Shown here: piece after piece, positions 5,846-11,183 of the stretch
How the letters are laid out: every line of letters starts with the position of its first letter
Position numbering within the stretch: position 1 is the first letter of the stretch
NCBI GenBank assembly: GCA_027620015.1
Contig: JAQCGH010000018.1
Coordinates: 1 to 35,345 of the forward strand
Reading direction: 5' to 3'
Source: Cyanobacteriota bacterium
Lineage (GTDB): Bacteria; Cyanobacteriota; Cyanobacteriia; PCC-6307; Cyanobiaceae
Length of the DNA: 35,345 bases
Notes under the pieces: model-generated
What the model saw: the letters and a program-made list of their open reading frames with translations, nothing else
Told to the model about the DNA's origin: nothing
Databases searched by the model: none
Position numbers and translations under genes: made by a program

Positions 5846-6628
5846 TCACATTCCCGTGATGCAGTAGCCGGCGTCCACATAGATCACCTGGCCGGTTATG
5901 CCGGATGCAAGCGGGCTGGCCAGGAAGGCGGCGGTATTGCCCACTTCCGCCTGGGTGACGGTGCGTTGCAGGGGCGCTTTTGCCTCCACGTTGTGGATCA
6001 TGTCGAGGATGCCGCCGATGGCGCTGCTGGCCAGTGTGCGGATAGGACCGGCGCTGATGGCGTTTACGCGCACTTGCTTCTCCGGGCCCAGCTCGGCAGC
6101 TAAATAGCGCACCGAGGCCTCAAGGGCCGCCTTGGCTACGCCCATCACGTTGTAATTGGGGATAGCCCGCTCAGCCCCTAGGTAGCTAAGGGTGATCACG
6201 CTGCCGCCAGGGTTGAAAAGGGGTTTGGCAAAGCGGCATAGGGGGGCCAAGGAGTAGGCGCTCACCTCCAGGGCCCGGGCGAAGCCCTCGGGGCTGATGG
6301 CGGAGTAGTCGCCGGTTAGCTCCTCCTTGCCGGCGAAGGCGAGGCAGTGCACAAGCACGTCGATCGAGCCCCATTTCTCCTTGACCCGTGCAAACACAGC
6401 CTCTATTTGGGCGGGGGCCTGTACGTTCAGCGGTTCGAACAGGCTGGGAGCTAGCGGTGCGGTGAGCTCGCGCACCTTGCCCTCGAAGCGGCCTTTCTCA
6501 TCGGGTAGATAAGTAACCCCTAACTCAGCTCCGGCCTCATGCAGCTGCTGAGCAATGCCCCAGGCGATCGACTTGTTGTTAGCGATGCCGGTAACCAGGG
6601 CTTTTTTGCCGCGCAGATCGAGGAGCAT
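5846..6628 (-). CDS. fabI: Enoyl-[acyl-carrier-protein] reductase (NADH)
   Basis: Reduces enoyl-ACP in the last step of each fatty acid elongation cycle. The 260-residue protein has the family NAD motif ITGIANNKSIAWGIA (about 13-26) and the hallmark Tyr-x6-Lys active site, Tyr159 and Lys166, in YNVMGVAK. Length and C-terminal IYVDAGYCITGM are typical of FabI. The start ATG at 6628 is followed directly by the Rossmann strand. It is divergent from the FAD-domain photolyase gene with only 2 bases between the start codons, so any promoters must overlap the opposing coding sequences. It likely leads a fabI-hisB transcript. Confidence 0.96.
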   Translation of the reverse strand: MLLDLRGKKALVTGIANNKSIAWGIAQQLHEAGAELGVTYLPDEKGRFEGKVRELTAPLAPSLFEPLNVQAPAQIEAVFARVKEKWGSIDVLVHCLAFAGKEELTGDYSAISPEGFARALEVSAYSLAPLCRFAKPLFNPGGSVITLSYLGAERAIPNYNVMGVAKAALEASVRYLAAELGPEKQVRVNAISAGPIRTLASSAIGGILDMIHNVEAKAPLQRTVTQAEVGNTAAFLASPLASGITGQVIYVDAGYCITGM

Positions 6629-6630
6629 GG

Positions 6631-7488
6631 ATGCAGTGGGCGGGAGCCTTAAGGATGCAATCGGTTGATTCTCTCCTACCCGGGGATTTGCCTCGCCAGT
6701 TCGCTAATCGCGATGAGATGGCAGCGATCCTGCGCCAGCTCTTTCCTGAGGCACCAGGTGGGTTGAGTCCAATGCAGGGCGGGCGCCGAGCAGCTGAAAA
6801 GGCTCTGGCCGGCATCGATCCGGCTGCATATGGCCGTAACCGAAACCATCTGGGGGGAGCTGTGACGCGACTTTCACCCCATATCCGCCACGGCGTACTC
6901 AGCCTGGTGGAGGTTCGTGAGGCTGTTTTTGACTGGCTGGAGCGGAGCAAGCAGCCGAAGGCAGCGGCTCAGAAATTAATAAGTGAGCTGGGTTGGCGCG
7001 ACTACTGGCAGCGGCTCTGGCGCCAGCTTGGTGACGGCATCTGGCGTGACCAGGAGCCGCTCAAGACCGGCCATTCCAGCGCGAGCTATGCCGCTGAGCT
7101 GCCGGCCGATCTGCTGTCAGCCCACACTGGCCTGGCCTGCATGGATGGCTTCGCCAGTGAACTGATCCTTACCGGTTGGCTGCACAACCACGCCCGGATG
7201 TGGCTGGCGGCCTACGTGGTGCACTGGCGGCGGATCCAGTGGCAAGTTGGTGCCCGCTGGTTTCTCCAGCATTTGCTTGATGGCGATCCAGCCAGCAACA
7301 ACCTCAGCTGGCAGTGGGTAGCCAGCAGCTTCAGCAGCAAGCCCTACGTGTTTAACCGGGAAAACCTGGAGCGCTTCAGCTCCGGCCGCTTTTGCCGCGA
7401 CTGCGCCCTGGCTGGTGCTGGCTGCCCCTTTGAAGCCAGCTACGAGCAGTTGCAGGCAGACCTGTTCCCAGGAGCCGGACCGTGCTGA
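6631..7488 (+). CDS. Photolyase/cryptochrome FAD-binding domain protein, no antenna domain
   Basis: The 285-residue protein matches only the C-terminal helical FAD domain of photolyases and cryptochromes. It has the GGRRAAEKAL and RLSPHIRHGVLSL segments, then LGWRDYWQRLW, LHNHARMW, DGDPASNNLSWQWVASSF and KPYVFNRENLERF. The usual N-terminal alpha/beta antenna domain is missing. Four cysteines, Cys170, Cys255, Cys258 and Cys265, follow the pattern of iron-sulfur ligands of FeS-type bacterial photolyases, and the last lies in a CPF motif. A GAGGAG Shine-Dalgarno sequence at about 6620-6625 favours the ATG at 6631; ATGs at 6655 and 6718 are alternatives. The downstream gene overlaps it by 7 bases. 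DNA repair or light sensing is inferred; the exact substrate is not visible. Confidence 0.85.
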   Translation: MQWAGALRMQSVDSLLPGDLPRQFANRDEMAAILRQLFPEAPGGLSPMQGGRRAAEKALAGIDPAAYGRNRNHLGGAVTRLSPHIRHGVLSLVEVREAVFDWLERSKQPKAAAQKLISELGWRDYWQRLWRQLGDGIWRDQEPLKTGHSSASYAAELPADLLSAHTGLACMDGFASELILTGWLHNHARMWLAAYVVHWRRIQWQVGARWFLQHLLDGDPASNNLSWQWVASSFSSKPYVFNRENLERFSSGRFCRDCALAGAGCPFEASYEQLQADLFPGAGPC

Positions 7489-7946
7489 GGCCCGTGCTCT
7501 GGATCCATGACGAGGCCCTTGGCCCTACCAATCCCTCTCTGGTGGCTCATCGGGAGGCGCCGGCGCTGTTCGTGTTCGACCGGGAGCTCATTGAGACCCA
7601 GCGCCTCAGCCTCAAGCGGCTGGGGTTTCTCTACGAGTCCTTGCTGGAGCTGCCGGTTACCCTCCGCCACGGCGACGTGGCCCAGGAGGTGCTGAGCTTC
7701 GCTAGCCGCCATGGGGCTGATGGCGTGGTCACCAGCGCTGGGGTGGATCCGCGCTTTGGGCTGTTGCGGGAGCAGATAGCTGCCCACTTGCCGGTTCAGG
7801 TGCTGGAGCCTGAACCCTTCGTGGTGCTGCCGGAACCGGTGGATCTGCGCCGCTTCAGTCGCTACTGGCGCCGGGCTGAGCCGGTGCTGTGGGGGCGGGG
7901 TTCAGCAGCCGCTCCTCCTGCTCCAGCACGTCTTTGGGATCGCTGA
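7482..7946 (+). CDS. Detached photolyase-like alpha/beta domain protein
   Basis: The 154-residue protein resembles only the N-terminal alpha/beta (antenna-binding) domain of class I photolyases. It begins PVLWIHDEALGPTNPSL, in the place of the usual WFRRDLRLxDNPAL. It continues with APALFVFDRELIE, LGFLYESLLEL, TLRHGDVAQEVL and VVTSAGVDPRFGLLREQIA, then a proline/alanine-rich tail. The start is a GTG at 7482 that overlaps the end of the FAD-domain gene by 7 bases, so translation of the two is probably coupled. Together they could rebuild a two-piece photolyase in swapped domain order; complex formation is inferred. The last 92 bases overlap the lipoprotein gene on the other strand, so the tail may be poorly constrained. 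Confidence 0.72.
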   Translation: MLRPVLWIHDEALGPTNPSLVAHREAPALFVFDRELIETQRLSLKRLGFLYESLLELPVTLRHGDVAQEVLSFASRHGADGVVTSAGVDPRFGLLREQIAAHLPVQVLEPEPFVVLPEPVDLRRFSRYWRRAEPVLWGRGSAAAPPAPARLWDR

Positions 7947-8421
7947 GCAGGTCGGCTTCCTCCAGTAGCGGGTAGGGCTCCGGCTTGATTTCGTTGGCGT
8001 TGCGGGGCGGCTCCAGCCAGCTAAAGCTGCTGCGGGGGGCCTGTTGCAGACAGAGGGCCTCGCTCTGCTGGCGCAGGGCCCGGCGCACGTCCTGGCGGGC
8101 GACGGCCTGGAAGAACTCCTGGCGCGGCGCAAGCCCCGAGCTGAAAGGCGCTGTACCGTTGCCGTTGAACAGCCGGGCCGCATCGGCGCTCCAGCGGGGC
8201 TTGCAGCTGCCGCTCTGGCGGGTGTCGGTGTCGATCCAGATATGAAGGCCGAAGCCATCGGGCTGACTGACCACGGCCAGACCGTCGTTGGGCATCCGCC
8301 GTTGCAGTGGATAGATCGCCCAGGTGGGGTGGCGGTGGGCTGGCACGCAGGCACTCAGTAAGGCGATGCCGATCAGGCTGGCAACCCCGCTAGAAAGTTG
8401 TCTTCGCCAAAGGGGGGTCAT
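7855..8421 (-). CDS. Putative lipoprotein of unknown function
   Basis: I do not recognise the family. From the ATG at 8421 the protein has 188 residues. It begins with a basic stretch MTPLWRRQ and a hydrophobic segment ending in a lipobox ALLSAC, so Cys25 would be lipidated. The mature part contains LAVVSQPDGFGLHIWIDTDTRQSGSC, split here for description into a beta-rich segment and a cysteine, followed by an arginine/glutamine-rich helical region and an acidic, proline-rich tail. An in-frame ATG upstream (8478) would bury the signal peptide and is rejected. Its 3' end overlaps the alpha/beta-domain gene by 92 bases. Membrane or periplasmic location is inferred from the signal only. Confidence 0.65.
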   Translation of the reverse strand: MTPLWRRQLSSGVASLIGIALLSACVPAHRHPTWAIYPLQRRMPNDGLAVVSQPDGFGLHIWIDTDTRQSGSCKPRWSADAARLFNGNGTAPFSSGLAPRQEFFQAVARQDVRRALRQQSEALCLQQAPRSSFSWLEPPRNANEIKPEPYPLLEEADLLSDPKDVLEQEERLLNPAPTAPAQPGASSD

Positions 8422-8535
8422 CGCAGGGCCCCACTGGTGGATGGTGAACTGATCATGGACCGGACCCGTGTGGCTCAACCACCAACTGGCATCCGGCCAC
8501 TAATGCATGGTTATGCAAGGGGTAAATTGCCAACT

Positions 8536-9744
8536 ATGCAGGTGCCTCCGTTCAGCCTCAGCGAGCAGATCCAGGAGCTGGGCGCGGCTCTAGATCAGGC
8601 CGTGCTCGAGGTACTACGCAGTGGCCAATACATCGGCGGCGCCACTATTTCTCGCTTTGAAGCCGACTTCGCCACCGCCTGTGGCGTGGCTCACGCCATC
8701 GGCTGCAACAGCGGCACTGATGCCTTGATTCTGGCCCTGCGGGGCTTGGGCATCGGCCCTGGCGATGAGGTGATCACTGCTTCCTTCAGCTTCTTTGCCA
8801 CCGCCGAAGCGATCAGCGCCGTAGGCGCCACGCCGGTGTTTGTGGATGTGGAGGAGAGCAGTTACCTGATCAATCTCGATCAGCTGGAAGCAGCGATCAC
8901 GCCGGCCACCCGGGCCCTGCTGCCGGTGCACCTGTTCGGGCGGCCCGTGGATATGGAGCGGGTGTGTGCCATCGCTGAGCGCCATGGCCTCAAGGTGGTT
9001 GAGGATTGTGCCCAGGCCACCGGTGCCAGCTGGGCGGGCCGGCCCGTGGGCAGCTGGGGGGATGTGGGCTGTTTCAGCTTCTTTCCCACCAAGAATCTGG
9101 GCGCTGCCGGCGATGGAGGGGCGATCACCTGCCGCGATGCCGATCTGGCCCAGGTCATGCGGGAGTTGGCGGTGCATGGCATGCCCCGCCGCTATCTGCA
9201 CACCGCCTTGGGATACAACAGTCGGCTCGACGCCATCCAGGCGACAGTCTTAAACGTCAAGCTGCCCTACCTGCCGCGCTGGGTAGAGCATCGTGGCGCC
9301 ATCGCCAGGCGCTACCACGAGCACCTAGCTGACCTCTCTGGCGTCGCCATGCCTGAGGCCGGGCCCGATGGCCACAGCTGGAATCAGTTCGTGTTGCGGG
9401 TGCCAGCCTGCCCAGCTGGGGTAAGGGCCTGCGGTGGTGACTCCAGCTGCATCCCTTCCGCCGACAGTGCTGCATTCGGCCTGCCGCAAGCCTGCTGCCG
9501 CGACTGGCTAAAGCAGCAGCTCCAGCAGGCTGGCGTCAGCACAATTATTTATTATCCGATTCCGATCCATCGCCAGCCGGCCTATGCCGATCTGGGCTAC
9601 GGCCAGGGATCCCTTCCGGTCACCGAGCGTCTCTGCACGGAAGTACTCAGCTTGCCGATCTTTCCGGAGCTCAGCGGCGAGCAGCAGCAGCGGGTTATTG
9701 AGGCGCTGAGCGCTGTGTTGGCTCAACCTTTGATGGTGGCGTAG
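8536..9744 (+). CDS. DegT/DnrJ/EryC1-type PLP sugar aminotransferase
   Basis: Probably transfers an amino group to a nucleotide-linked keto sugar, for O-antigen or extracellular polysaccharide. The 402-residue protein begins VPPFSLSEQIQEL and has AIGCNSGTDALILALRGLG, ASFSFFATAEAI, LLPVHLFGRP and VVEDCAQATGA. The PLP lysine is Lys186 in FFPTKNLGAAGDGG, and YNSRLDAIQA follows. The C-terminal domain has IIYYPIPIHRQPAY. The ATG at 8536 is chosen because the family begins there; in-frame upstream starts add an unconserved leader. An unusual cysteine-rich stretch (Cys292, 299, 305, 320, 321) interrupts the usual short link between NQFVLRV and RDWLKQQL. The 3' end overlaps phr by 22 bases. The exact sugar cannot be read from sequence. 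Confidence 0.88.
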   Translation: MQVPPFSLSEQIQELGAALDQAVLEVLRSGQYIGGATISRFEADFATACGVAHAIGCNSGTDALILALRGLGIGPGDEVITASFSFFATAEAISAVGATPVFVDVEESSYLINLDQLEAAITPATRALLPVHLFGRPVDMERVCAIAERHGLKVVEDCAQATGASWAGRPVGSWGDVGCFSFFPTKNLGAAGDGGAITCRDADLAQVMRELAVHGMPRRYLHTALGYNSRLDAIQATVLNVKLPYLPRWVEHRGAIARRYHEHLADLSGVAMPEAGPDGHSWNQFVLRVPACPAGVRACGGDSSCIPSADSAAFGLPQACCRDWLKQQLQQAGVSTIIYYPIPIHRQPAYADLGYGQGSLPVTERLCTEVLSLPIFPELSGEQQQRVIEALSAVLAQPLMVA

Positions 9745-11183
9745 AGGGCCTTGAAGCGTGCCTGCTGAATTTTGTGGTTCACCAGCGGAGCCGGGTAGCA
9801 CCGCCGCTCCAGCGGTGCGATCTCGCCACTGATCAGATCGCGGGTGGCCACGTGCCGCAGCTCCGGTAGCCAGGTGCGGATGTAGTTACCATCGGGATCA
9901 AACTTGCTTGCCTGGGTGGCCGGGTTAAAGATGCGCAGCGGTTTGGGGTCCATGCCGCTGCTGGCGCTCCACTGCCAGCCGCCATTGTTGGCGGCCAGGT
10001 CGCCATCCACTAGGCGCGCCATGAAGGCCGCCTCACCCCAGCGCCAGTCACAGATCAGGTCTTTTACCAGGAAGGAGGCCACGATCATGCGGCAGCGGTT
10101 GTGCATCCAGCCGCTCTCGTTGAGCTGGCGCATGGCGGCGTCGATGATCGGCATGCCTGTAAGGCCTTCGCGCCAGGCTTCAAACCCGTCTTGGTCGTTG
10201 TCCCAGGGGAAGGCGCTCCACTGGGGCCGGTAGGGCCCTTCGGCCAGCTCGGGAAAGTGAAAAAGTGCCTGCTGGTAAAACTCGCGCCAGGCCAGCTCCT
10301 GCTCCCACACCTGGATTGAGTGCAGCTCCTCCTCGCTGCGGGCCAGCTGCCGGGCCTGCTGGGCGGCGGCCCAGGCCTGGCGCGGGCTGAGCGTGCCGAA
10401 CTTGAGGGCGGCGCTGAGCCCTGAGGTGCCCGCTTCGCCGGGGATGTTGCGTCCCGGTTCGTAGCCAAGCAGCGCAATGGAGCGGCCATCGCCGTCGCAG
10501 AAGACCTGTAGTTGCTTTTGGGCTGCTTTTTCGCCGGGGCGGCAGGGGCAGAGCTCAGCACCCTTAAAGCCATGCTCCAGGTCGGGGCTCACCAGTGGCA
10601 GCTCACTGATCTGGGCGGAATCGCAATCCATCAGGGCGCTCGGCGCCGGCAGGGGATCCAGGCCACCCGAGGCGGCGGAACCTAGGGCGCTTGCCTCCTC
10701 CACCCAGCGGCGCCAACTGCGCCAGTAGGGCCCGTACACCCGGTAGGGGTCGCCGGCGCCGGTTTTGATGGCCTCCGGCGCCACCAGCAGCTGGTCCCAG
10801 TCGGCCAGCACCTTGCGCCCCTCCGCCTGCAGCGCCTGCGCCACCCGCCGGTCGCGCTCGCGCCCGAAGGGTTCCACGTCCCTGTTCCAGGCCACCACCT
10901 CAGCGCCCATGGCACCCGCCAGGCGGGGCAGTAGCTCGGCTGGGTCGCCGCGGAGGATCACCAGCCTGCTGCCGGCCTTCTGCCAGGCCTGTTGCAGCTC
11001 CCGCAGGCTCTCAGACAGAAACCACAGCCGCGCCGGGGCCATGCTGGGCTCCGAGAGGATGGTGGGATCCAGCACGAAAACCCCAGTCACCGCTCGAGTG
11101 GCGGCGGCGGCTGCCGCCAGGCCCCGGTTGTCGGCCAGACGCAGGTCGCGGCGATGCCAGAACAGCCAGCGCTCAGGAGCCAT
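9723..11183 (-). CDS. phr: Deoxyribodipyrimidine photolyase, class I CPD type
   Basis: Splits cyclobutane pyrimidine dimers using blue light and FADH-. The full-length 486-residue protein matches the roughly 484-residue cyanobacterial enzyme. The N-terminal antenna domain begins LFWHRRDLRLADNRGL. The FAD domain has LAWREFYQQALFHFPEL, GMPIIDAAMRQL, WMHNRCRMIVASFLVKDL, and DGDLAANNGGWQWSASSG. Tryptophans are present where the electron-transfer triad is expected. The cyanobacterial relatives use a deazaflavin antenna, which is likely here by homology only. It follows the Nudix gene with a one-base TAATG overlap, so it is the second gene of that transcript. It converges on the DegT gene with a 22-base overlap. 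Confidence 0.95.
   Translation of the reverse strand: MAPERWLFWHRRDLRLADNRGLAAAAAATRAVTGVFVLDPTILSEPSMAPARLWFLSESLRELQQAWQKAGSRLVILRGDPAELLPRLAGAMGAEVVAWNRDVEPFGRERDRRVAQALQAEGRKVLADWDQLLVAPEAIKTGAGDPYRVYGPYWRSWRRWVEEASALGSAASGGLDPLPAPSALMDCDSAQISELPLVSPDLEHGFKGAELCPCRPGEKAAQKQLQVFCDGDGRSIALLGYEPGRNIPGEAGTSGLSAALKFGTLSPRQAWAAAQQARQLARSEEELHSIQVWEQELAWREFYQQALFHFPELAEGPYRPQWSAFPWDNDQDGFEAWREGLTGMPIIDAAMRQLNESGWMHNRCRMIVASFLVKDLICDWRWGEAAFMARLVDGDLAANNGGWQWSASSGMDPKPLRIFNPATQASKFDPDGNYIRTWLPELRHVATRDLISGEIAPLERRCYPAPLVNHKIQQARFKALYATIKG

Follow-up and report, generated by a model that had tools for sequence, protein, structure and literature searches.

In marine Synechococcus, a photolyase-type gene pair with reversed domain order has been named phr4/phr5 (PMC9426592, mBio 2022). 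According to that paper, the pair occurs in all marine Synechococcus and in half of six Cyanobium strains, two Cyanobium strains (NS01 and PCC 7001) carry a fused form, phr6, and four cysteines are found in all Phr4 and Phr6 proteins, for which a 6-4 photolyase was predicted. A phr4 mutant was more sensitive to ultraviolet C (UV-C), phr4/phr5 raised the UV-C survival of Escherichia coli, and transcripts of both genes followed light and ultraviolet (UV) in strain WH7803; whether the products are two polypeptides or one frameshifted chain was left open. Two further groups stand close to this system. The short photolyase-like (SPL) class has been described as cyclobutane pyrimidine dimer (CPD) repair enzymes without an alpha/beta domain (PMC9649867), and Synechococcus elongatus has three photolyase genes, the third of which is an SPL (PMC9178010). 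An inverted order of domains has already been published for the NewPHLs (PMC13274461), and NewPHL and Phr7 were given as the closest relatives of the flavin adenine dinucleotide (FAD) domain of Phr4 (PMC9426592). Here we analyzed 35,345 nucleotides of a Cyanobiaceae genome (assembly GCA_027620015.1, contig JAQCGH010000018.1, positions 1 to 35,345), referred to below as the window, in which two overlapping genes, gene 1 and gene 2 (Table 1), probably encode the two subunits of one iron-sulfur (Fe-S) photolyase of the Phr4/Phr5 kind; judging from the sequence comparisons, we give this interpretation a probability of about 0.75.

The likeness to phr4/phr5 was close. As in the published pair, adjacent open reading frames (ORFs) encode an FAD domain alone and then an alpha/beta domain alone, the order and spacing of the cysteines match (C169, C254, C257 and C263 in that pair; C170, C255, C258 and C265 in gene 1), and a phr3-like full-length photolyase gene lies a few genes away, with two ORFs between. 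Unlike the pair of PMC9426592, the window genes share a seven-base overlap, and their relatives differ in how the two genes meet. Phr6 has the same two domains in the same order, on one chain where the window has two genes. A preliminary description of the window had regarded a paired, detached antenna gene as the new part; the gene pair is already known, having been published in 2022 as phr4/phr5 together with the fused phr6 (PMC9426592). In the portions of the open-licence literature searched, no other paper turned up that describes the split pair.

Domain content and conserved residues

Gene 1 matched PF03441 (FAD_binding_7) at E 1.9e-20, over profile positions 2 to 126 of 203, and had no match to PF00875 at E<=1 and no second domain on its chain, in agreement with the preliminary description of the first gene as the FAD domain of a photolyase only. 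The part corresponding to the C-terminal third of the FAD profile was missing, and a short cysteine-bearing tail stood in its place; judged by this match, gene 1 is not a plain canonical FAD domain. Relatives with 57 to 86% identity were found in 80 loci, the best 80 of 272, a selection that favors close relatives; with the window these made up 81 gene 1 loci, four of them labelled Chloroflexota, and two canonical photolyases from the window's own genome (L081 and L082) were not counted among them. The cysteines C170, C255, C258 and C265 were kept together in all 85 aligned gene 1 sequences, as were the equivalents of class I N349, W367, W390 and W392, while the equivalents of E283 and M353 were present in 84 and 81 of the 85.

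CPD enzymes show the pattern N-xxx-M, and eukaryotic 6-4 photolyases show H-xxx-H. The N-xxx-M of gene 1 argues against the 6-4 photolyase predicted in PMC9426592 on the basis of the cysteines. We would expect the lesion to be a pyrimidine dimer, with a CPD more likely than a 6-4 product, both being predictions. The roles given to the active-site Glu, Asn, Met and Trp residues of class I enzymes are presumed here, in part after PMC9426592. A prokaryotic (6-4) photolyase of the FeS-BCP type was also considered and rejected, as there was no PhrB-type domain on the gene 1 chain and the match to (6-4) PhrB was weak (E 0.24). With class I CPD photolyase (PhrA, 1owl) the window pair shares homology in both domains and aligned active-site residues; the class I enzyme, unlike the pair, is a single chain with the alpha/beta domain first and has none of the four cysteines, whereas the window has two genes in reversed order.

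Taken singly, gene 2 of the window had no more than a weak match to PF00875 (DNA_photolyase), at E 0.0033 and 17.8 bits against a cut-off of 26.6. At the level of the family the match was clearer, with 23 of 26 members reaching E<=0.1 (best 1.4e-5); the Usp family was also matched by seven of the 26 (best 0.00087). When a profile of 68 gene 2 sequences was compared with one of eight canonical photolyase N-terminal domains, the two matched with 97.1% probability and E 7.6e-11 over 112 columns; the eight were drawn from 12, as the cutting motif was not found in L082, L091, L113 and L114. Homology of the gene 2 family to the photolyase antenna domain is firm on these comparisons, which bear out the earlier assignment of the second gene to an antenna-like alpha/beta domain alone. 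The family was strongly conserved across relatives (64 sequences; left out here and from the profile set were L064, which a contig end truncates, and L007 and L044, in which the match continued through a stop codon). Searches of the PDB returned nothing usable, either with a single gene 2 sequence or with the gene 2 profile, for which the best hit was 8p4x, a cryptochrome, at E 0.027.

The canonical stretch VYWNxDVEPYGRDRD, a region that we take to be the chromophore site, aligns with VVTSAGVDPRF in window gene 2. This would fit an alpha/beta protein that acts as a structural or regulatory partner without an antenna chromophore and is needed for folding of the FAD subunit or for its binding to DNA, and the co-inheritance described below would fit any obligate partner. 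We regard such a partner as possible, if doubtful, given the strong conservation of gene 2 and its homology to the antenna domain across those 112 columns.

Co-inheritance and fusion

We evaluated the occurrence of the two genes in 146 cyanobacterial genomes spanning the phylum (gene 2 at E<=1e-8, gene 1 at E<=1e-50). Gene 2 was found in 26 genomes and gene 1 in 27, and all 26 were common to both. The 27th gene 1 match, in G026, was much weaker (7.2e-67, against 3.1e-128 or better in the rest) and came from a 451-residue open frame without the cysteines and with a NewPHL-like layout. A sample of 151 family genomes included 81 with gene 2 and 80 with gene 1, with 80 shared; the discrepant gene 2 match (G166) begins at base 1 of its contig and is cut by the contig start. 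One genome of the window's own genus (G192) had neither gene at these thresholds. Around gene 1, gene 2 lay downstream or was fused in 67 of the 81 loci (66 of 80 without the window), and in each of the other 14 genomes, where the flank of the gene 1 locus had no gene 2, it was found elsewhere in the genome. Gene 2 was thus present in every genome with a strong gene 1 that was examined, at 26/26 in the phylum, 80/80 in the family and 81/81 among the loci, which are overlapping sets. The preliminary description had named a missing second gene in close relatives that keep the first as grounds for refutation, and no such case was seen in these sets. With so many relatives and so conserved a pairing, neither ORF looks like a product of chance.

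The two genes did not have to be neighbors to be kept. In nine of the 26 phylum genomes they were far apart on one contig, by 0.48 to 4.9 Mb (G046, G058, G083 and G085), or on different contigs (G044, G066, G095, G121 and G143). Since neighborhood alone cannot explain joint retention at such distances, this is the strongest argument, from gene content, that the products work together in trans.

Fused versions, the search for which had been proposed with the preliminary description, were found repeatedly. Gene 1 and gene 2 were fused in frame in 19 of the 81 loci and, as judged by shared open-frame length, in 23 of 80 family genomes, and in every case seen, in picocyanobacteria and in Deinococcus, gene 1 came first and gene 2 second. 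A quick tree, with long branches (L103 and the outgroup rows) and serving only for a rough count of fusions, required four changes of fused state, at least two of them forced by its starred branches; on this count the two genes have been fused at least twice.

Outside the cyanobacteria, gene 1 had matches in 77 plasmid records. Among the 40 of these 77 matches that were listed, four Deinococcus plasmids stood out, at 40 to 54% identity and E 9e-55 or better. A Nostoc gene 2 query at E<=0.01 found these four plasmid records and no others; three carried the fused form and the fourth had a 4-base overlap. The other 36 listed were weaker, and of six inspected, five were taken as NewPHL-like, with an FAD domain and a C-terminal domain on one chain; the sixth, from Persicobacter, was not among the five used as NewPHL-like. 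The locus L111 yielded no usable protein. In Chloroflexota, gene 2 was found in six of 121 genomes and gene 1 was sought in seven of the 121; a strong gene 1 was present in four of the six with gene 2 (G305, G358, G392 and G400), and in G400 gene 2 itself was in two pieces on two contigs.

Variation at the junction

The second gene begins inside the end of the first, exactly as the preliminary description had it, and the overlap, GTGCTGA, joins the gene 2 start codon to the gene 1 stop codon. In PMC9426592 the spacing of phr4 and phr5 is reported to be precisely maintained, with seven G-C base pairs and a frame change in all strains; set against the figure legend of that paper, the GTGCTGA of the window does not read as seven G-C pairs. 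Within the window's genus, 10 pairs including the window had junctions of -7 in eight, -4 in one and -1 in one, where negative values are overlaps; five of these ten genomes are also among the best 80 gene 1 loci. Ten further genomes of the family had junctions of -1 (some with an alternative start at -4), +14, +15 and +30, and in three of the ten gene 2 starts in frame after the gene 1 stop. Another member of the family (G150) had a 4-base overlap, and Nostoc-type genomes had 4-base overlaps and longer gaps. The spacing reported for phr4/phr5 is therefore not maintained in a sample wider than that of PMC9426592.

A programmed ribosomal frameshift at the overlap, which PMC9426592 proposed as one possibility, would give one Phr6-like chain and make the second start codon incidental, and the existence of fused relatives is in keeping with it. 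The junctions of -7, -4 and -1 and the gaps argue for two polypeptides instead: spacing differs within the genus as well as across the larger family and phylum, many genomes have the two genes at a great distance from each other, and where gene 2 starts at -7 it does so with GTG in some genomes and with ATG in one. We consider a frameshift very unlikely.

How gene 2 is initiated is a separate matter. A Shine-Dalgarno-like AGGAG precedes its GTG in the window (Table 1); among 26 closely linked gene 2 starts a Shine-Dalgarno-like 4-mer was found before six, with a background of 0.08. By this count, initiation signals 5' of gene 2 are not generally conserved, and they are weak evidence for independent initiation. 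From the overlap and a likely translational coupling, the preliminary description had suggested that the two products act together as a two-piece enzyme or light sensor. Joint action as a two-piece photolyase in reversed order is well supported by co-inheritance and by the fused relatives; coupling is plausible for many close relatives and is not required, because so many genomes keep the two genes well separated.

A probable two-subunit photolyase and evidence against it

In the arrangement we favor, subunit 1, an FAD domain of the SPL type that probably carries a 4Fe-4S cluster, would bind FAD and damaged DNA and carry out repair driven by light, and subunit 2, the alpha/beta protein, would dock on it at or near the canonical domain interface, most likely as a light-harvesting and/or structural subunit. 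The two would normally be separate polypeptides, probably coupled in translation where the genes overlap, and in some lineages would form one fused chain in the same order. To the question left open by PMC9426592 this adds a strong genomic argument, in that the genes need no joining and yet are kept together.

Several observations weigh against this interpretation. The samples overlap and their genomes are related, and the counts given above are neither independent events nor to be summed. In gene 1, no Trp aligned with W314, the third Trp of the usual electron chain, and of the 13 positions that PMC9426592 gives as FAD contacts, only nine were identical in the window protein (with position 346 scored as W after the G036 enzyme, where the paper prints T346). 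Loss of phr4 did not lower survival under UV-B, and the protection of E. coli from UV-C by phr4/phr5 did not differ significantly between light and dark, according to PMC9426592; protection that is independent of light is not the behavior expected of a photolyase. In one Chloroflexota genome, G424, gene 1 lay in two overlapping frames (L145, 220-1178), followed by an intact gene 2 that overlaps it by 4 bases; the split frames reflect either decay or a sequencing error. Finally, another Chloroflexota genome (G376) had a distant, lone gene 2 relative (L144, 1963-2424, minus strand), and a gene 1 search there gave nothing above the level of ordinary photolyases; this is the one real exception to the pairing found, the reverse case of a gene 1 lacking its gene 2 not having been sought in that phylum. 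We also observed that the C-terminal motif of this relative is degenerate and reads LLSPARYW.

Little beyond the lone relative in G376 would favor the view that the two genes are neighbors without a shared function. Both genes are kept where they are far apart and they have been fused at least twice, so that this explanation is hardly credible. The dark protection of E. coli and the light- and UV-tracking transcripts of WH7803 would also suit a cryptochrome-like light sensor that is not a repair enzyme, an alternative raised in the preliminary description. Against a sensor, the equivalents of the class I active-site Glu, Asn, Met and both Trp residues are kept, on the catalytic and the substrate side, with roles as presumed above. 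The published phenotype is one of UV survival (PMC9426592), and PMC9649867 characterizes SPL proteins as enzymes of CPD repair. We therefore do not favor the sensor and judge it unlikely, and continue to regard the pair as a two-subunit repair enzyme.

Relation to SPL and NewPHL proteins

Like the SPL class, gene 1 encodes an FAD domain that no alpha/beta domain precedes on its chain. The genome G036, from a near relative of S. elongatus, encodes a class I photolyase that can be aligned with 1owl over the full length and differs from it little. The sole further FAD_binding_7 gene of G036 at E<=0.001 is gene 1, followed 3 bases later by gene 2. By elimination, then, the S. elongatus SPL (SePhrC) is very probably the orthologue of gene 1, as far as G036 can stand in for that strain. 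Unlike the description of the SPL class, an alpha/beta domain is encoded by the next gene, both in the window and in G036. It may be, and we see the chances as evenly balanced, that part of the SPL class is not antenna-less, its alpha/beta domain being supplied in trans by a subunit of its own, whose gene may lie at a distance and is still not lost. If so, obligate two-subunit Fe-S photolyases would exist in cyanobacteria, Chloroflexota and Deinococcus. The SPL class, reported by Xu et al. in 2021, has been proposed to be ancestral to all photolyases; the short form could then no longer serve, in its present state, to model an ancestor poor in domains. The comparison also gives reason to re-examine SPL proteins for a possible missing partner, as experiments in vitro with an SPL by itself may have been made with only half of the enzyme.

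Like NewPHL and Phr7, in which an FAD domain is followed by a Z-domain, the window pair has the FAD domain first and an extra domain second. Unlike NewPHL, gene 1 ends after its cysteine tail without a Z-domain on the chain, and the four cysteines are not kept in NewPHL-like sequences, any one of them being present in at most two of eight. Equating the Z-domain with gene 2 was not supported, as the gene 2 profile reached 20% probability (E 0.0011) against six NewPHL-like C-termini. The NewPHL-like protein of G026, a genome grouped with the cyanobacteria, showed none of the gene 1 cysteines (L095, 847-2172, minus strand) and ends in RSFSQFWEVA, which recalls the RFSRYW of gene 2; it is possibly contamination or a third architecture.

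Genomic neighborhood

Table 1. Coordinates of the gene pair, its junction and the surrounding ORFs in the window.
Feature	Position	Strand	Remarks
Gene 1 (phr4-like, SPL-type)	6631..7488	+	285 amino acids, ATG start; FAD domain only; C170, C255, C258, C265
Gene 2 (phr5-like)	7482..7946	+	154 amino acids, GTG start; free-standing photolyase alpha/beta domain, antenna-type; DLxRFSRYW near C-terminus conserved
Overlap GTGCTGA	7482..7488	+	7 bases; gene 2 start codon and gene 1 stop codon; read from sequence
AGGAG, Shine-Dalgarno-like	7470..7474	+	7 bases 5' of gene 2 GTG, within gene 1; read from sequence
ORF, presumably fabI-like	5846-6628	-	First start codon 2 bases from gene 1 start
Conserved ORF	7855-8478	-	Converges on gene 2, overlapping its last 92 bases
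DegT-type aminotransferase ORF	8398-9744		Convergent with phr3-like ORF, 22-base overlap
Full-length class I-type photolyase, phr3-like	9723-11183	-	TIGR03556 6.7e-196, below curated cut-off (651.7 of 884.6 bits)

Upstream of the pair lies a divergent ORF that looks fabI-like. Its start codon and that of gene 1 are so close (Table 1) that a promoter for the pair would lie inside this ORF; no sigma-70-like promoter was found by consensus in positions 6300-8100. The conserved ORF that converges on gene 2 had no Pfam or NCBIfam match at E<=1, and in 28 of the 80 loci that were the best of the 272, tblastn located a relative of this ORF on the downstream side of gene 2.
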